NCBI RefSeq assembly: GCF_000482245.1 | Contig: NZ_AWNH01000110.1 | Span: 1-33,688 of the forward strand | Direction: 5' to 3' | DNA: 33,688 nt | Origin: Leptolyngbya sp. Heron Island J | GTDB lineage: Bacteria; Cyanobacteriota; Cyanobacteriia; Phormidesmidales; Phormidesmidaceae | Shown: positions 16,540-33,688 of the stretch, in pieces | How positions within the stretch are numbered: position 1 is the first letter of the stretch | Layout: each line of letters starts with the position of its first letter | Translations under genes and position numbers: made by a program | Notes under the pieces: model-generated | What the model saw: the letters and a program-made list of their open reading frames with translations, nothing else | Databases searched by the model: none | Told to the model about the DNA's origin: nothing

Positions 16540-16631
16540 AGTTCAAGATCTCCGGGTAACACTAATGATTGTTAATGGTATTATCTCATCCTAATAAGCA
16601 GACCGCTGGACAATGCTTACTCCGTCTACTT

Positions 16632-16731
16632 AGGAATGAGGATTTAATTGGGTCCTATCTTTTGCCGTACAGGCGTTCCATGGAACGCCTCTGCAGACAA
16701 CATTTTTGGGTCTTATAAAATCCTGATCCCT
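16632..16731. mobile_element. Foldback (MITE-like) element, copy 1
   Basis: A 100-bp unit about 94% identical to 22502-22601 in the same orientation. Its ends are imperfect inverted repeats (GGAATGAGGATTT against the complement of AAATCCTGATCCC). The middle carries the perfect 20-bp palindrome AGGCGTTCCATGGAACGCCT. It encodes no protein, so it would need a transposase in trans. The parent element was not found here. Confidence 0.75.
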
Positions 16732-17082
16732 GACAACAGACATTACCGATAACTGCAGATGGATTGTAGTTGAAAAAGGGAATCACAAATGTGTCAAAAA
16801 GAAGGAAACTGATAATCAACTAACTTCTCTTACCTCAATTTAACAAGCTTAGGGATTAGCAAACAAATAAAATACCCATACGAAATTATGTTGCTAGGAT
16901 GTCCTCCCCTTCGTAAGGAGGGGTGCCTTAGGCGGAGGGATCTTGACCAATAGCGCTATATCTCGATAACCCCCTGTAACTCCCCCTAAGCCCAAAGGGC
17001 AGGCTTCGCCAACGTAAGGGAGACAGTAGTCAAGCTAGTTTTTGACAGAGGATATATTATTTTCACACCTGTCCCTTATCTA

Positions 17083-17730: not shown

Positions 17731-20454
17731 TCAGGACAGGGGCAGTCGTTTCTCTAAAATACTGCTAATTAACGTCTGGTTTTCTTCACTCTCAGTTTGT
17801 TGGAGATATTCCAGAGCAATCTGTCCAACAGCGGGATTTTTATGGGTAATCGCAATCAGCTGATGTAAGGTTTTTTGAAGTTGAATCTGTTTAAGTCGCT
17901 GGTTAGTAATCATCACAAAGACGAGAATAGCCAGGCTCCAGCATAAACTGGCAGGCAGCAGCGGTAGCCACCATCCGGCTAGAAAGCTAACGTAACAGAG
18001 AACAAACAAGGCTGTTAGCCCCAGAGCACCCACTATGAGAATAGGCAGGGAGAACTTAAACCACCAGGCGACCCAGCAACCTGCTATGGCCCAGGCTAGT
18101 CCCCAAAGTTCTTTGTAGGGGGGTGACCAGGTATTGAGCAGCGGGCGCTTGTCCAGGGCGGCCGCCAGCAGCTGGCTGATAATGTTGGCATGGACGGCGA
18201 TTCCCGACATTTCTTCGCGGGGTAACCCAAACCATGAGGTGTTGTAAGGCGTGCCGACTAAGTTTTGCACGCTTTCAGCCGTGGGGCCAATCAGCACAAT
18301 GCGATCGCGCAGTGTGCCCTGGGGCACCTGGTTGGTCAAGACCTGCTGCAGCGAATAGGTTTGAAATTTACGCTGGGTGCCCCAATAGTTGATTAATATT
18401 TGATAGCCGCCATCGTCAGCCCGCACATAGCCGCCATTGTTGCTGCGAAAAGGACGCAGTGTAGCCTGCCCCAAGCGAATCGTATCGGAGGTTTGAGGAG
18501 AGGTATCAGGATGAATGCCAACGGCTTCCAAATAGGCCAGGGTAATTTTTAGGGCCAGACTATAGTGCAGATTGCCATTGGGGGTACGCACTGATAATAA
18601 GGCTCGCCGCAGGTTGCCATCGGCATCAAACACCTGATCGGTAAATCCCACCTGTCCCTGGCTAGCTAATTTGGCGGGAGCGGCTACCTGATCGCCAATG
18701 ACTTTCTCGATACCCACCAGGTTAGGCATGGTCGCAAATAGCTGGGCGAGTTGGTCTGTACCCGGTCCAACCGGTAAGTCTCGATAAAACACCAGTCCAA
18801 TCTGCCGTGGCTCCTGAGCGTCTAAAGTTTGTAAAGTATCGGCAATTATCTGATCAGGAATGGGGTAGCGCCCTACCTGTTGTAGATCGGCTTCGTTAAT
18901 GGTGACCAGGGTAATCCGAGAATCCATACGTGTGTTGTTATGGCGAAGTTGGAAAAAGCTATCCAACAGAGACCATTCACTGCCCTGTAACCAACCGGTC
19001 AGACACAGCAACCACACGATTAGGGCCGTTCCACAGCCCACCAGCAAAATCCACCAGGGCGGCAGCCGTAAACGTTTGACTTGCTGGCGGCTAGCTAATT
19101 TGGCCTCGGCCAGCACCTGATTGGCTTCACGGGTTGCCGTCAGAGCAAACTGAACCTGTTCTCGCTGTTGTTGTTCTGCTACTAGCTTGGTTTCAATGCG
19201 CTGTTGTTCTTGTTGCTGGCTGGTGCGCAGAAACCGATAGTCCAGATCGCTAAGCTGTTTCTCATCGGCCCAGGCCATGGCTTCCTGGAGGGCAAATCCG
19301 CTCAGTAAATGGCTGGAATCTTTTTGCCCAGTGGCGATCCAGTGACTAAAGGGGTCTGAGTATGGCCGCAGCAGCGACAGCTGGTGGGTTACCCAGGTTT
19401 CATTAAAAATTGTTCGGTATATCGCATTTTTGACCTGGAGATAGCCATGATGATTGACGGCTATCCCTGAGAGCAACAGCTCGGTATGTTCTCGACTGCC
19501 GTCAAAGGCGACGGTCTGGTTTGCCAGGATCTGTTGATAAAGCCCCAGCAGACGCCCCGTCAGGGCAGGCTGGTTGAGAATACGATCGCGAATTGTCCGT
19601 AAATGTTCAGGTTCATCATTGGCTTCCCAATTTTCAATCAACCGGGTTTGGACAACCCAGTCAACCCAGTTAGGCTGGTCTACAGGTGGGGTACCCATTT
19701 CTGTTAATAACTGACAAATCTTTTGGGTTAAAAACGGTTGCCCACCTGTCCACTTGAGGATGTTGGCCAGGGACGACGGTGACAAACCTGAAGTTTGCAG
19801 ACCTGTGGCTAACGGTTCTGCTTCTGTCAAAGAGAACCCAGCTAAGGTCAGCGCTTGACCAATGTTAAAGGGAGTTCTTTGCTTATCCTGGAGCAAATCA
19901 GCAGGGCTGGCTACCCCAAACATGGCAAAGGTAATCCGGTGATAGTTTGGGTCCACCGCCCGCCGGTTATAGCAATAGCGAATGACCGCAAAAAAGTCAT
20001 CCACCGCAAACGGTAAGCCCAATACACTATCCACTTCGTCTAAAAAAATATAGAAATGGTCTTTGGGGCACTGTTCTAATAGCCGATCCACAATAAATCG
20101 GCTCAATTTTTGAGGTAGTGATATCTCTCCCTGGGTCTGCCACCACTGTTGAAACTGGTCAACATCAGCCAGTTGTAAATCGTGCCAAAGTTCAGCCAGC
20201 AGTCCTTTGTACCATTGAACAGGAGTGATGCGTTTGCTACCGATGCTGGTCAGGTCTACCATGGCACAGCGATGCCCGGCCTTTTGTAGACGATATTTAG
20301 TCCGTACCATCAGGGAAGACTTTCCCATCTGCCGAGAGTTTAGGACATAACAAAATGTTCCAGCCGTCAGAGCCTCTAGCAGACTGGTATCTGTCTGTCG
20401 TTCTACATAGGTGGGATCTGTTGCATTCAGCGTACCACCAACCCGATATCGCAT
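17731..20454 (-). CDS. AAA-like NTPase fused to a CHASE2 sensor domain (907 aa)
   Basis: The N-terminus is the same AAA-like chassis as in the two WD40 proteins: YRVGGTLNATDPTYVERQTD, Walker A NSRQMGKSS (Lys45), Walker B FYIFLDEVDS (Asp139, Glu140), FAMFGVASPADL and WTGGQPFLTQKICQ. A Gln-rich coiled coil (about 410-455) and a membrane helix (about 467-488) follow. The next 280 residues form a CHASE2 domain (LLDSFFQLRHNNTRMDSRIT, then GLVFYRDLPVGPG and LRDRIVLIGPTAESV). Three more membrane helices at about 790-860 and a short cytoplasmic tail end the protein. CHASE2 is a predicted extracytoplasmic sensor, usually fused to kinases or cyclases. Here the only enzymatic part is the N-terminal NTPase. 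It lies downstream of another AAA-like gene on the same strand, 334 nt away. No Shine-Dalgarno is evident. Confidence 0.88.
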   Translation of the reverse strand: MRYRVGGTLNATDPTYVERQTDTSLLEALTAGTFCYVLNSRQMGKSSLMVRTKYRLQKAGHRCAMVDLTSIGSKRITPVQWYKGLLAELWHDLQLADVDQFQQWWQTQGEISLPQKLSRFIVDRLLEQCPKDHFYIFLDEVDSVLGLPFAVDDFFAVIRYCYNRRAVDPNYHRITFAMFGVASPADLLQDKQRTPFNIGQALTLAGFSLTEAEPLATGLQTSGLSPSSLANILKWTGGQPFLTQKICQLLTEMGTPPVDQPNWVDWVVQTRLIENWEANDEPEHLRTIRDRILNQPALTGRLLGLYQQILANQTVAFDGSREHTELLLSGIAVNHHGYLQVKNAIYRTIFNETWVTHQLSLLRPYSDPFSHWIATGQKDSSHLLSGFALQEAMAWADEKQLSDLDYRFLRTSQQQEQQRIETKLVAEQQQREQVQFALTATREANQVLAEAKLASRQQVKRLRLPPWWILLVGCGTALIVWLLCLTGWLQGSEWSLLDSFFQLRHNNTRMDSRITLVTINEADLQQVGRYPIPDQIIADTLQTLDAQEPRQIGLVFYRDLPVGPGTDQLAQLFATMPNLVGIEKVIGDQVAAPAKLASQGQVGFTDQVFDADGNLRRALLSVRTPNGNLHYSLALKITLAYLEAVGIHPDTSPQTSDTIRLGQATLRPFRSNNGGYVRADDGGYQILINYWGTQRKFQTYSLQQVLTNQVPQGTLRDRIVLIGPTAESVQNLVGTPYNTSWFGLPREEMSGIAVHANIISQLLAAALDKRPLLNTWSPPYKELWGLAWAIAGCWVAWWFKFSLPILIVGALGLTALFVLCYVSFLAGWWLPLLPASLCWSLAILVFVMITNQRLKQIQLQKTLHQLIAITHKNPAVGQIALEYLQQTESEENQTLISSILEKRLPLS

Positions 20455-20788
20455 AGGCTATAAAAATCTTGGCGTTGCTGATCCTCAGTATGATTTCAAT
20501 GTAACGATCTTGCCGTATTGTGTTTCCAAGCAATCAATTTATATTTTGGATCAACACCTGCAAAATCTTCTCAAGCACTCGCGTTTAAGGTCCTAAAAAT
20601 GTCAAAAGTAGCCCGAGCAAAGCAGGCTCCTTGACGGTTACGTTTTGACTCTTACCTGCTGCATACTCATCTTCGCTCCATAGTTGTCCGATGTCTCAGG
20701 TTGATACAGGGGTTAGGTAACATGAATTAAAAATAACTTACTTTTCTTACCTGCTGAGCCTTCCCTGCTAAGACGTCTCCTGCAGGAA
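20455..20788. other. 334-bp gap between the two minus-strand AAA genes
   Basis: It contains a terminator-like hairpin (20604-20628) behind the HTH-AAA gene and presumably the promoter of the CHASE2 gene. No ORF of note and no clear -10/-35 pair. Confidence 0.5.
20604..20628 (-). terminator. Possible terminator of the HTH-AAA gene
   Basis: On the minus strand AGCCTG pairs with CGGGCT (one wobble) around a 7-nt loop, followed by ACTTTTGAC. It is short, so the call is tentative. Confidence 0.4.
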
Positions 20789-22213
20789 TCAAACCATGGT
20801 TTCCCGAGCAAACGTCTTTAACTGATGGCTGAAATAAAGACGATATAGCTCACAGCTGGGCTTGACGAGGGTTTGCTCAAAACTGACTAATCCCAGGCTA
20901 TCGAGTTTGTAACTCGCGATCCCATCCAGTACCACCCCATCTCCATGGGTGATCACCTGATAGTAGCTGGCCGCCACCGAAGGATCGCTGTTTAACATCG
21001 CCAGACAGCGCTGTAGATGGTCATGATAGATCCCTTGGGCGCTAGCAGCGGTAGCAATGATTTGCTCCAGAGACATCTGACCCTGCTGCAGCGTGTAAAA
21101 TGCCAACCCGGCTAGATGTGGATGGCCGTTAATCAAATAATAAAACGACCGGAATGACTGACCTGCTCGACCATGGAGCAAGGTCTCCACACCATAGCGC
21201 TGAGCCAGGTGGGTGAGCTGTTCCAGGGTAAAGGGGGGTAACCGAATAGGCAACCCGACATTAAATGGTGATTGATTGAGATGGAGTGGCACATAAAGGT
21301 CGGTGGCATGAACCAATACCAACCTTAGCTTTTGCCAGATGGCACTGTCCTTAGACCGTTCATGCCAAACCCTGAGCATCGGCAAAAAGTCTTGGACAAT
21401 TCTCGAGTAGCCAAAGATGCGATTGAGTTCATCAATGCCCAGCACCAATGGAGTCGAGATTTCCTTGAGCACATAGCGCTCAAAATAAAGCTTGCAATTA
21501 ACCTTACTGCCCATTTCTTGATCCCATAGGGCATCCACCTTTGACGGCAGTCCCAGCTGATGACTGGCGTTCGCACATAGCCAGCGGAGAAATTGGTCAA
21601 GATGGTCAAAGATTTCTCGGTCTACTTCCTGAAGATTGAGGGTAATGGTGCGATAGCCCTGACCCTGGGCGTGGTCAAGTAAACGATTGAGTAATGAGCT
21701 TTTCCCCATCCGCCGAGGAGCTTTAATCCTCAAGAGACAGCCGGGATAGCTCAGTTCATTAAACGCACTGGCTTCTTGGGGTAGACGCTCTACATAGAGG
21801 GGAGAATCTAGGGGTAAGGGACCCGATGGAAATCGACTGGCGGCGGTAACTGTCGGCGTCAGAGGTTTGACGGACGGGCGCGGAGAAGCCATCGTCTGGG
21901 CAGCTGGCGCAGCGGTTGGAATCGATACAGCGGCTGGTCTAGGGATTGACTGGGGCTGGTATTTCTGCAAACGCTCAGGGGTCAAAACCAGCCGTAGGCT
22001 TTTTTTGCTAACACTTTCTCCCAGAGCCACCGAAAGTTCTGACCAAAGCTTTGAGCCAATTTGTTTAATATACTCTGTAGCATAGCTAGAACTTTGGGCG
22101 ATTTCAGCATAGCTGCGATGAGACCAGGATTCTTGCAATACCAGGCGCTCAAGCGTCCCCAACTGTCTCTGCAAAAGCCGTTCTACCTTAGGTACAAGCG
22201 TGTCTATGTCCAT
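20789..22213 (-). CDS. vMAP-type HTH plus AAA-like ATPase (474 aa)
   Basis: Residues 1-85 form a helix-rich domain (QRQLGTLERLVLQESWSHRS, YAEIAQSSSYATEYIKQIGS) with a helix-turn-helix look, like the N-terminal domain of vWA-MoxR-associated cyanobacterial proteins. A Pro/Ala-rich linker (90-130) leads to an AAA-like domain: SPLYVERLPQEASAFNELSY, Walker A KAPRRMGKSS (Lys171), Walker B PLVLGIDELNRIF (Asp261, Glu262), and LRLVLVHATDLY as a sensor-like strand. A winged-helix-like NGHPHLAGLAFY region follows. There is no membrane helix, so it should be soluble. Such proteins often carry a C-terminal effector. This one ends after the NTPase. It may regulate or partner the CHASE2-AAA gene downstream on the same strand, but a gap and a possible terminator separate them. 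Confidence 0.82.
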   Translation of the reverse strand: MDIDTLVPKVERLLQRQLGTLERLVLQESWSHRSYAEIAQSSSYATEYIKQIGSKLWSELSVALGESVSKKSLRLVLTPERLQKYQPQSIPRPAAVSIPTAAPAAQTMASPRPSVKPLTPTVTAASRFPSGPLPLDSPLYVERLPQEASAFNELSYPGCLLRIKAPRRMGKSSLLNRLLDHAQGQGYRTITLNLQEVDREIFDHLDQFLRWLCANASHQLGLPSKVDALWDQEMGSKVNCKLYFERYVLKEISTPLVLGIDELNRIFGYSRIVQDFLPMLRVWHERSKDSAIWQKLRLVLVHATDLYVPLHLNQSPFNVGLPIRLPPFTLEQLTHLAQRYGVETLLHGRAGQSFRSFYYLINGHPHLAGLAFYTLQQGQMSLEQIIATAASAQGIYHDHLQRCLAMLNSDPSVAASYYQVITHGDGVVLDGIASYKLDSLGLVSFEQTLVKPSCELYRLYFSHQLKTFARETMV

Positions 22214-22382: not shown

Positions 22383-22501
22383 ATTTAGCCAAGATTTAGC
22401 CAAAAATTATTAAAATTTCCCTTTTGTCAATTGTTATCTAGCCCAATTTTTGATCCTTAATCTATTAATCTTGAGCTTGCAGGACTTGATCCCTGGAACT
22501 A

Positions 22502-22601
22502 GGGAATGAGGATTTAATTAGGTCCTATCTTTTGCTGTACAGATGTTCCATGGAACGCCTCTGCAGACAACATTTTTGGATCTTATAAAATCCTGATCCC
22601 T
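22502..22601. mobile_element. Foldback (MITE-like) element, copy 2, abutting the Rieske stop codon
   Basis: Second copy of the unit at 16632-16731. Here the outer ends read CTAGGGA-ATGAGGATTT and the complement of AAATCCTGATCCCTAG, so both termini carry CTAG, as expected for insertion at a TA dinucleotide. The stop codon of the Rieske gene (22600-22602) overlaps the element edge. The central palindrome has two mismatches in this copy. Confidence 0.75.
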
Positions 22602-23052
22602 AGGACACCTTAACCAGGACACTCTCTCCCTCAATCAGGGTCTCATAAGATTCCAGGGGTCTAACGGCAGGCCCAATGGTGACCCTGCCATCCGTAGCAA
22701 ATTCAGAGCCATGACAGGCACAGGAAAATTTATCCGCCTCCCAGTCAACCGTACATCCTTGATGGGTGCATTTGGAGTTGAGAGCAATCACACTGTCAGT
22801 ATTGGCTGGATCGCGAACGACAATCACATTACCCACAGCCAGGCCTTTTTTGGTTAGAAACCCCTTGGTATCTAAATCTGCCACTGTACCAACGGTCTCA
22901 AATCCATCTGGCGCTTCTGACGCTGGTACTGAGTCTCCGACAGCAGGGGTATCGGATGCGGGTTCAGTTGGATTGCAGGCTGCGATCGCAACCGGCAGCG
23001 AAGTCGCCAACATCCCTAGCCCAACAAAATTCATAAACTCACGACGTTTCAT
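22600..23052 (-). CDS. Rieske [2Fe-2S] lipoprotein (150 aa)
   Basis: The start at 23052 (MKRREFMNFVGLG) is preceded by AGGAGAGAAGAG. An upstream in-frame start adds only unrelated residues. The N-terminus has a twin-arginine motif (KRREFM), a hydrophobic stretch and a lipobox IAAC (Cys26), so the protein is probably exported folded by Tat and lipid-anchored. The Rieske boxes are complete: CTHQGC (Cys95, His97, Cys100) and CACHGS (Cys111, Cys113, His114), giving two Cys and two His ligands plus the usual disulfide. It is not the cytochrome b6f Rieske, because it lacks the long membrane anchor and has a lipoprotein leader. It is last in a six-gene run with a di-haem peroxidase, so an electron-transfer role is inferred. 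Its stop codon touches foldback copy 2, so the C-terminus may have been trimmed. Confidence 0.88.
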   Translation of the reverse strand: MKRREFMNFVGLGMLATSLPVAIAACNPTEPASDTPAVGDSVPASEAPDGFETVGTVADLDTKGFLTKKGLAVGNVIVVRDPANTDSVIALNSKCTHQGCTVDWEADKFSCACHGSEFATDGRVTIGPAVRPLESYETLIEGESVLVKVS

Positions 23053-23080
23053 ACTCTCTTCTCTCCTACATTTCTGAAAT

Positions 23081-24184
23081 TTACTGGCCACTACCTGTCG
23101 CATCGAGCCACTGGCGTTTGGTCTGGTCAAGCTGGACCTGGGTTAGGGGGAAAAACCCTAACTCGCTCATCACCTCAGCCATCTCTGTCAGGTAAAAGTT
23201 GACAACAGCTTTGGTGGGTGTGCCTGCTGCTAGCTGTGTTTGATCCACGTAGATAAACAAGGATTGCACTAGCGGATAAGCATTACTTTCAACCGTATCT
23301 AAACTGGCGCTAATGCCGTTGATGGGAATCACCCGAAAGGTGGCAGTAAAGCGCTCATAAAGGGATTGATTGATAGACGCAAGACCATTGGGCACCGTAC
23401 TCAGAGTTTGCATCATCGGCTCTGGGTAGTCATAAAAGGTGGTATTTGCCGTCTTTAGTAACGCCGCCCCATCGGTTGGAAACAGCGTTCGGGTCAATAA
23501 AGCCATCGTCGATGAATTAGGCCCGATCATCCCCCGCTCAATTGTTGTATTTGGCCAACTTGTGTCCACATCGGACCACCTATCCTTGGTCAGAACGGCC
23601 TTTAATTTTTCAAGATCAATGCCGCGGACAAAATCGTTGTCTCGATTGACAACCAGCAGCAGTGGATCTTTGCCAATGGTCAATCCCAGGGGCTGACGGC
23701 CCTTAGCCTGGCACGCCTGAATTTCCGCTTCAGACATGGCCCGGTTAACACTTAAGAAATTAACGCTGCGGTCCTGACAAAATTGTTGAATCGCCTCCCC
23801 TGCCCTCAGCACATTAATATCTAACAAACCACCGTACCCTGCTTGAATCAGCCGCTGATACATCTGTTCATTAAACGCCTGCATCGTTGGGGCGCTGGCT
23901 ATAATGACATCCTTCTGGATTGCTAAGGGTGCATCTCTAGGCAGCGTCACCGAGCTGGTGTTAGCTGTAGGCTCCTGCTGAAGACGGCTGGTGGTCAAGC
24001 TCTCCAAATTTGGATCAATCAGGGGTTCTACCTCATTGACGGCCTGCCTGAACTGGGCATAGGGATTGTTCGGACTGTCCTCCGACTGAGAAACTGCGGC
24101 TTGACCACAGCTGGTGACCAGGCCCAAAAATAACAACAACCTCAAACGCGGCCAGAAGATTTTGAACAAAACAGAATAAACCAT
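23081..24184 (-). CDS. PstS-like periplasmic substrate-binding lipoprotein (367 aa)
   Basis: An N-terminal hydrophobic signal with lipobox VTSC (Cys26) is followed by a low-complexity linker and a type-2 periplasmic binding fold: VIIASAPTMQAFNEQMYQRL near the start of the fold, then FCQDRSVNFLSVNRAMSEAE, PLGLTIGKDPLLLVVNRDND, DLEKLKAVLTKDRWSDV, RGMIGPNSSTMALLTRTLF, and AYPLVQSLFIYVDQ. The I-vNR-(A)M-E-E and YPL-R-L-IY elements are typical of PstS-like phosphate binders, but no ABC permease or ATPase is adjacent, so it more likely serves as a ligand sensor or orphan binder. An AGGA that overlaps the previous stop region precedes its ATG, and the gap to the upstream gene is 7 nt, which implies translational coupling. 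The Rieske gene starts 28 nt downstream. Confidence 0.82.
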   Translation of the reverse strand: MVYSVLFKIFWPRLRLLLFLGLVTSCGQAAVSQSEDSPNNPYAQFRQAVNEVEPLIDPNLESLTTSRLQQEPTANTSSVTLPRDAPLAIQKDVIIASAPTMQAFNEQMYQRLIQAGYGGLLDINVLRAGEAIQQFCQDRSVNFLSVNRAMSEAEIQACQAKGRQPLGLTIGKDPLLLVVNRDNDFVRGIDLEKLKAVLTKDRWSDVDTSWPNTTIERGMIGPNSSTMALLTRTLFPTDGAALLKTANTTFYDYPEPMMQTLSTVPNGLASINQSLYERFTATFRVIPINGISASLDTVESNAYPLVQSLFIYVDQTQLAAGTPTKAVVNFYLTEMAEVMSELGFFPLTQVQLDQTKRQWLDATGSGQ

Positions 24185-32488: not shown

Positions 32489-33688
32489 CTAGTGCAGTCT
32501 CAGGTCATCTCTTTTCCAATAATCCAAGAACCTGGATAATGGTTTGAAGCCACCGAGTCTTGATGGTTATCCAATGCCCAAGTCCCTCAAAGTTCGTCCT
32601 CTGAGCCCAGATGAGAAAACCGCCTTGGAAGCGGGTCGTCAGTCTTCCGAAGGGTTTACCGTGCGTCGCAGCCAAATCATATTAGCCAGTGCAGCGGGTC
32701 AAACACCCCCTGAGATTGCCAAGTTTGTGGGCGGTACTCGCCAGAATGTATGCCTTGTGATTCATGAATTTGAGGAACGAGGGTTGGCGTGCTTAGTGCC
32801 TCGTCCAAGTGGTCCCAAACCCGGCGATGAATTACTGTTCGATGCCACGAAGCGCGAACGATTAAAAACCATTGCTCACACCAGTCCCCGTGAGTATGGG
32901 CAAGCACGGTCCATATGGACCCTCAAAAGTCTGGCCCAGGTATGTCACGAGCAAGCCTTAGTAGAGGTCCCGGTGAGTCATGAAACCATTCGCCAAACCC
33001 TGTTACTGATGGGAGTGAGTTGGAAACGAGCTAAACAATGGATCACCTCTCCTGACCCGGACTATGCCCGAAAAAAGCGGCAACGGGACCGTCTCATCCT
33101 CATGGCGGCTCAACATGACACCTGGGTGGTTGGGTTTCAAGATGAGGTGTGGTGGTCCCGATTGACATACCCCGATATGCACGCTTGGAGCGAGGATGAG
33201 CCCCTCAAATTGCATCAAAAGCACTTTGAGAAAACAGACTCTGAGCCCAAAGCGATTGCCTGTTATGGTCTCTGGTGTCCCTGCTTAGCCATCATGGTGA
33301 TTCGATTTGTCCAATCCCGACCGGTTAGCGATCTGACCTGTCAATATTTAGAGTGGGTCTGTCAATCACTCTATGCCTTAGGTAAACGCGTTTTGGTCCT
33401 AATTTGGGATAACGCATCCTGGCATGTTTCAAAAGCCGTGCGTCAATGGGTTCGAGACCATAATCAGCTCATCAAACAGACGGGGGGATTGCGGTTGATT
33501 CTCTGTTTGCTTCCCGTGAAGAGCCCCTGGCTCAATGCAATTGAACCTAAATGGGTACATGCCAAACGGGCCATTGTTGAACCCACCAAGGTGCTTACAG
33601 CTGATGACATTAGGCAACGTGTTTGTGACTATTTTGAATGTGAGGTACTTCCCTCTTTAGTAAAAAAGACTGCTTGATTCTGCACTAG
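32489..33688 (+). mobile_element. IS630-family insertion sequence, apparently complete
   Basis: A 1.2-kb element with a transposase gene and terminal inverted repeats: left CTAGTGCAGTCTCAGG, right (complement) CTAGTGCAGAATCAAGC. The first nine bases match exactly, with a shared TCA further in. The CTAG at each end fits the IS630 habit of inserting at TA and duplicating it. The window stops at the right terminus, so the far flank cannot be checked. Confidence 0.82.
32574..33677 (+). CDS. IS630-family transposase (367 aa)
   Basis: An N-terminal helix-turn-helix (SEGFTVRRSQIILASAAGQT, PPEIAKFVGGTRQNV) is followed by a winged-helix segment and a DDE domain. The acidic triad is visible: Asp190 in VVGFQDEVWWSR, Asp279 in VLVLIWDNASWH and Glu324 in SPWLNAIEPKW, with the usual 34-44 residue spacing between D2 and E. 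The ATG at 32574 was chosen. A TTG ten codons upstream is also in frame, and neither has a strong ribosome binding site, as is common in these elements. No frameshift or internal stop is present, so the element may be active. It inserts in cis-linked TA sites and could in principle also mobilise small TA-flanked elements. Confidence 0.9.
   Translation: MPKSLKVRPLSPDEKTALEAGRQSSEGFTVRRSQIILASAAGQTPPEIAKFVGGTRQNVCLVIHEFEERGLACLVPRPSGPKPGDELLFDATKRERLKTIAHTSPREYGQARSIWTLKSLAQVCHEQALVEVPVSHETIRQTLLLMGVSWKRAKQWITSPDPDYARKKRQRDRLILMAAQHDTWVVGFQDEVWWSRLTYPDMHAWSEDEPLKLHQKHFEKTDSEPKAIACYGLWCPCLAIMVIRFVQSRPVSDLTCQYLEWVCQSLYALGKRVLVLIWDNASWHVSKAVRQWVRDHNQLIKQTGGLRLILCLLPVKSPWLNAIEPKWVHAKRAIVEPTKVLTADDIRQRVCDYFECEVLPSLVKKTA

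Follow-up and report, generated by a model that had tools for sequence, protein, structure and literature searches.

Leptolyngbya sp. Heron Island J, a cyanobacterium, carries a 98-bp non-coding mobile element that is a MITE of the ordinary kind. This identification is well supported, since the element codes for nothing, ends in imperfect inverted repeats of 23 bp and, in most near-complete copies, lies between equal 3-bp flanks. Its mobilization probably depends on the enzyme of a larger insertion sequence (IS) in the same genome, and comparison of end sequences and flanks makes it highly likely that these repeats are non-autonomous DNA transposons which a DDE transposase of the ISAzo13 family mobilizes in trans. 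MITEs themselves are a known kind of element; what is new is a MITE linked to ISAzo13 with a nested hairpin core that also occurs alone. Among the literature matches listed, we found no description of the 98-bp element in titles and the beginnings of abstracts, subscription papers lying mostly outside the scope of this search.

Structure, copy number and distribution of the element

The window, that is, the whole stretch of 33,688 nucleotides that was analyzed, is contig 110 of a genome of 8.06 Mb in 119 contigs. It contains two copies of the element, with the following features.

16633 to 16730, plus strand: MITE copy 1, 98 bp (sequence, copy comparison, genome search)
16630 to 16632, plus strand: target triplet TTA on the left of copy 1 (no exact duplication, TGA standing on the right)
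16731 to 16733, plus strand: target triplet TGA on the right of copy 1
16633 to 16655, plus strand: left terminal inverted repeat (23 bp) in copy 1 (18/23 identical to an ISAzo13 IS end)
16708 to 16730, minus strand: right terminal inverted repeat (23 bp) in copy 1 (18/23 identical to an ISAzo13 IS end)
16671 to 16690, no strand: central palindrome of copy 1 (20 bp, perfect)
22503 to 22600, plus strand: MITE copy 2, 98 bp (sequence, copy comparison, genome search)
22500 to 22502, plus strand: TAG target duplication on the left of copy 2
22601 to 22603, plus strand: TAG target duplication on the right of copy 2
22503 to 22525, plus strand: left terminal inverted repeat (23 bp) in copy 2 (19/23 identical to an ISAzo13 IS end)
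22578 to 22600, minus strand: right terminal inverted repeat (23 bp) in copy 2 (19/23 identical to an ISAzo13 IS end)
22541 to 22560, no strand: central palindrome of copy 2 (left arm with two changed bases)

The original prediction placed two foldback copies here, and both are present, with 94 of 100 bases identical over the span it gave; the unit of about 100 bp that it described is indeed a foldback, but the element proper measures 98 bp. Likewise, the inverted ends exist, not at the proposed length of about 14 bp but as imperfect 23-bp repeats whose consensus left and right sequences agree at 17/23 positions, and the proposed 20-bp central palindrome, AGGCGTTCCATGGAACGCCT, is exact in copy 1, whereas copy 2 has two altered left-arm bases. 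The CTAG reported at either end of copy 2 (22499 to 22502 and 22600 to 22603) was read correctly and is a C followed by the TAG target duplication. No open reading frame of at least 90 amino acids spans either copy, and the predicted fold of copy 1 is more stable than 200/200 shuffles on each strand (z scores of -3.69 and -3.96).

A search of the own genome returned 45 match rows at an E value of ≤0.001, which come down to 40 distinct places once five palindromic echoes of listed places are removed; a half copy at C59:4145-4194 raises the number of copies and pieces to at least 41. This total is a minimum, because the first look scored 40 among 89 candidates. Copy number, inverted ends and the target duplications described below thus bear out the view of the repeat as a foldback mobile element. 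The 31 own copies that were compared show a median divergence of 6.1% from their consensus, versus three right pieces of the IS, which are identical to each other, a contrast counted against present activity of the MITE.

Matches to the MITE were found in 8 of 39 genomes, the own genome included. Full-type copies occur in the own genome and in four of its seven same-genus relatives (G002, G004, G005 and G007), while G021, G023 and G029 contain short pieces only; no copy was found in the same-genus genomes G001, G003 and G006, the assemblies of which are 70, 91 and 75% complete. At one own-genome locus (L060, 2343 to 2640), a MITE copy missing most of the palindrome directly adjoins a miniature element of about 200 bases that, by eye, has similar ends and no palindrome. 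In G021, which belongs to the same family and another genus, a 100-base element (L044, 1426 to 1525) has ends of the MITE type (GGAATGGGAATTTAAC and GGGATCAGGATTTTATAAGATCC) around a middle that differs from that of the MITE, such ends being common to different genera.

Target duplications and end sequences shared with an ISAzo13-family insertion sequence

The flank test was made on 54 near-complete copies, the 12 incomplete ones among the 66 matches being left out. The 3 bp on either side are equal in 34 of these 54 copies (TTA in 19, TAA in 13, TAG in 1 and CTA in 1, the last being L037, whose end is uncertain), whereas 10,000 shuffles of the right flanks gave a mean of 15.0 and a maximum of 25 equal pairs. 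Equal flanks were found in 24 of the 36 own copies and in 10 of the 18 copies from relatives; they are missing in 20 of the 54, including copy 1 of the window (TTA/TGA). A separate count confined to the own genome gave 23 of 36, with a shuffle mean of 10.3 and a maximum of 19. In the 3-bp register, both 23-base ends face each other without a gap.

The triplet is preceded by C in 32 of the 34 equal-flank copies, which is not the case at most copies of the IS; this is a site preference that a 3-bp duplication leaves unexplained. The difference leaves room for another transposase making a 4-bp CTWA duplication, which would fit the C-preceded copies, the last base of the element also being C. We regard this alternative as improbable, since it puts the two ends one base out of register, since L039 and L109 have no C before the triplet and fit 3 bp only, and since all four MITE ends in the window match those of ISAzo13.

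A TA-targeting, IS630-like transposase had originally been suggested, and a MITE of an IS630/Tc1-mariner element would find some comfort in the TA contained in TTA, TAA and TAG and in the IS630-like transposase (DDE_3) encoded in the window at 32544 to 33677. However, the flanks show a duplication of 3 bp, not TA; a TA duplication would need a 1-base shift of the ends between the TTA and TAA copies, whereas 3 bp gives common ends. Moreover, the ends of the IS630-like element, CTAGTGCAGTCT and CTAGTGCAGAAT, are unlike the MITE end GGAATGAGGATT, a difference that had been noticed from the start, and the MITE ends match those of an ISAzo13-family IS in the own genome. An IS630 parent is therefore rejected on duplication length and end sequence, and we hold it to be very unlikely. 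The IS630-like element itself occupies positions 32489 to 33688, at the end of the contig, and is unrelated to the MITE.

A search of the own genome with an end pattern yielded 46 matches (0 and 1 in the backward control), which include MITE copies and places carrying an ISAzo13 transposase. The sequence GGAATAAGGATTTTATAGTATCC is found at the ends of contigs C15, C35, C71 and C84 and at an interrupted internal place in C83, and GGAATAAGGATTTAATAACTTCC at the ends of C38, C59 and C60; three right pieces of the IS are identical over 567 bases. The IS is thus split across contig ends, with no single copy having both ends and no exact overlap found between its left and right pieces. Contig breaks are expected at a recent multicopy IS. 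The consensus ends of the MITE agree with the 23-bp IS ends at 16, 18, 18 and 17 of 23 positions, and when every 23-mer on either strand of the window was compared with the IS ends, the four MITE ends scored 18 to 19 and the next best 16. The end identity between MITE and IS, 70 to 78%, was counted against ISAzo13 parentage.

Two parts of an ISAzo13-family transposase lie behind the C84 and C60 ends. The C-terminal piece matches NF033519 with an E value of 5.3e-75 and 252.9 bits (cutoff of 200), and the N-terminal piece matches it with an E value of 1e-50 and 172.9 bits, under the cutoff as a fragment; Pfam PF07592 is matched as well, and the matches of the two pieces to the IS630 model are weak (E values of 1.7e-6 and 5.8e-7) and below the cutoff. 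PF07592 and the MITE co-occur in the same five of the eight same-genus genomes (own included), PF07592 being found neither in the three same-genus genomes that lack the MITE, with their completeness of 70, 91 and 75%, nor in 14 control genomes; the matches in G002 and G007 are partial, several of them with stops. A full-size ISAzo13 IS with different ends (L075, in G004) is flanked by TTA on both sides, and ISAzo13 elements are reported to generate 3-bp duplications (PMC10045372).

Beyond about 23 bp, the interiors of the MITE and the IS are unlike by eye. The kinship is therefore one of ends only, and we do not claim membership by descent; an origin of the MITE by internal deletion of the IS was rejected on the same comparison. 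In the mechanism that we favor, the ISAzo13 transposase would bind the MITE ends as it does its own and then move the element, which would be joined to a staggered 3-bp target, the duplication arising by gap repair. Shared ends and a 3-bp duplication tie the MITE to the little-studied ISAzo13 family, and this link makes cross-mobilization by that family directly testable. Our literature search found no paper joining ISAzo13, cyanobacteria and non-autonomous elements.

Three further places contain sequences of this type. At L058 (G000:C55:1-427), an end like the right end of the ISAzo13 IS is followed by an element with an ISAs1-type appearance inserted within, and the reading frame near this end is one that we take to be of the ISAs1 type. 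The ISAs1-like end, CAGGGCTGATC, begins further in, so that the ISAs1-type element looks inserted into a related end; ISAs1 was set aside as the parent. At L059 (G000:C83), the ISAzo13 left end is broken after about 130 bases, and the adjoining reading frame resembles the N terminus of a Tn3-family transposase. Finally, a second repeat in the window (16849 to 17027) begins about 120 bases past copy 1 with TTA-GGGATTAGCAAACAAATAAAATACC, and its start resembles the ends of the ISAzo13 IS in G004; about 170 bases of it recur at 82 to 85% identity in five places of G006 and more weakly elsewhere, and its far end was not found.

The central palindrome and the possibility of a structured RNA

With up to two mismatches, the palindrome occurs at 56 sites in the own genome, more than the 41 copies and pieces of the MITE. 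The best MITE copies (21/54) have a perfect palindrome of 20 bases, and most copies have the stem GTTCC/GGAAC, L106 and L114 having GTTGC/GCAAC; both forms are also found standing alone. Among the standalone or partial sites that were measured, L064, L065, L067, L070, L111 and L112 are perfect palindromes of 30 to 56 bases, L066 is one of 20 bases, and L068, L069 and L115 are imperfect. In its degenerate form, the palindrome was found in 8 of 145 genomes of the class, a count that includes the own genome; six of the eight belong to a single family, and no genome has more than 81 sites. The backward control gave 0 in all 145. A literature search with the letters of the palindrome returned unrelated matches only.

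This independent occurrence, in the own genome as in relatives and across those eight genomes, would suit a reading in which the mobile unit is the palindrome itself, a REP or small dispersed repeat, the 98-bp frame being a mere neighborhood. Yet it is the ends of the 98-bp unit that bear the equal flanks and the conserved boundaries, and the arms too are conserved between copies. We give this reading hardly any weight for the MITE; it may be right for the palindromes that stand alone and still fail to account for the 98-bp unit.

A composite origin is conceivable, if clearly on the doubtful side: ISAzo13-type ends would frame an independent dispersed palindrome, the whole stem being swapped or repaired at once. 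Cited in its favor are the two stem forms and three copies whose symmetrical arms are extended. The half element L061 has a perfect palindrome of 42 bases, and the second copy at L033 and L039 have, by eye, longer symmetrical arms with central mismatches (exact measures of 8 and 4). Such arms may reflect hairpin-templated repair. In the main reading, too, the palindrome, which some cyanobacteria also carry as an independent small repeat at scattered sites, was probably captured by the element, and its retention might be guessed to mean that short foldback DNA is tolerated or aids mobility. If the composite origin is true, two kinds of small mobile DNA are united in one element, and the symmetry of the apex is maintained by hairpin-templated repair or by repeated capture. 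The shared palindrome provides a natural series on how the hairpins of foldback elements stay symmetrical.

Could the repeat instead be a structured RNA or a shared regulatory element, with no mobility? Each strand has a strong predicted fold, and in an alignment of 49 copies (L017, L031, L033, L037 and L038 having been dropped from the 54 for indels or uncertain ends) the apical stem is paired in 94.6% of cells, the arms being paired in 74.0%. The covariation score of the named foldback, 0.087, was reached by 1 of 500 shuffles, slid versions reaching at most 0.068, and three apical pairs are changed on both sides, two of these in at least two copies. Against this, the window has no Rfam match at the gathering score, the RNAalifold consensus of the 49 copies amounts to -1.03 kcal/mol with 6 pairs, and the cells of the named foldback are paired at 79.3%, versus 78.9% after shuffling. 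The pairs changed on both sides number 10, versus 6.5 after shuffling (23 of 500 shuffles reach 10, as does one slid control), and the corresponding cells number 16, versus 9.5 (7 of 500 shuffles reach 16); the tool itself warns that related sequences can exceed shuffles without structure. Hence, no covariation-supported consensus fold emerged, the excess over shuffles being weak, and RNA-type covariation, which the original prediction had named as the sign that would speak against mobility, is weak as well. Since the copies also have different neighbors and equal flanking triplets, a conserved RNA is disfavored by the Rfam search, the consensus fold and the pair counts, and we consider it very unlikely.

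Insertion sites and comparison with known systems

To look for empty sites, which the original prediction had proposed to find in relatives, the flanks of 16 own-genome copies were joined in pairs and searched in the seven same-genus relatives. At three sites (L008, L029 and L030), the joined flanks match one or two relatives in a single stretch that runs through the junction and contains no element: L030 in G004 and G005 (139 query versus 142 target bases, 81 to 82% identical), L008 in G007 and G001 (74 to 77%, with a diverged spacer) and L029 in G002 (74%, 21 bases longer). The element is thus absent at aligned sites, but none of the 16 is a base-perfect empty site; at L030, G004 and G005 have TGG at the position of the triplet, with three extra bases beside it, and no TTA. 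Both flanks of L008 are also present in G003, G004 and G005, and both flanks of L017 in G003, with no element and another spacer between them, while the L029 site holds other DNA in G004 and G005 and the L020 site several hundred other bases in the same two genomes. The L032 site is occupied in G004 and G005 (L105 and L107), so that some insertions are common to several species. For the ten remaining pairs, the two flanks never aligned together in the seven relatives, and for the window copies, only neighboring genes aligned, in G002, at 73 to 75%. Near the position orthologous to the L029 insertion, G005 has a different small foldback with the core GGTCCATGGAATG (L141).

When the element was removed in silico, 34 of the 36 own copies left no frame of at least 100 codons across the junction, L015 and L039 having junction-spanning frames of 110 to 123 codons (putative genes), which would be consistent with selection removing genic insertions. 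Copy 2 lies exactly at the stop codon of a Rieske-domain gene (22600 to 23130), which is rebuilt by the element base C22600 and the TAG duplication. In 4 of the 36 own copies, copy 2 included, the target triplet shares bases with the stop codon of a long frame, versus 63 of 2018 control triplets, which are other such triplets outside long frames; numbers this low give no more than a hint that stop codons make harmless targets. Between the two window copies, positions 17731 to 22213 contain two AAA_35 genes, one of which also has a CHASE2 domain; parts of their DNA match other places in the own genome and in related ones.

The parent family and a hairpin core capable of standing alone are the unusual features of this MITE. 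It resembles the ISAzo13 IS in the 23-bp end pattern (16 to 18 of 23), the 3-bp target duplication and the genomes of the genus in which it is found, and differs from it in being 98 bp long without a transposase and in its interior, as judged by eye. Nezha and other cyanobacterial MITEs, named in PMC3733652 and in the reference list of PMC10969869, are likewise small and non-coding, with inverted ends and many copies, a likeness of kind. The very small mobile repeats of cyanobacteria (Elhai et al. 2008, cited in PMC3733652) are short and dispersed and compare in kind with the standalone hairpin, whereas the 98-bp unit possesses ends and duplications of its own. Similarly, the standalone hairpins L064, L065, L067 and L070, with GTAG at the base of the stem, recall the GTAG-tagged cyanobacterial REPs, which include GTAG-12, -15 and -16 (PMC3733652). 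This likeness lies in the GTAG tag, and, unlike those repeats, the 98-bp unit is not a REP.
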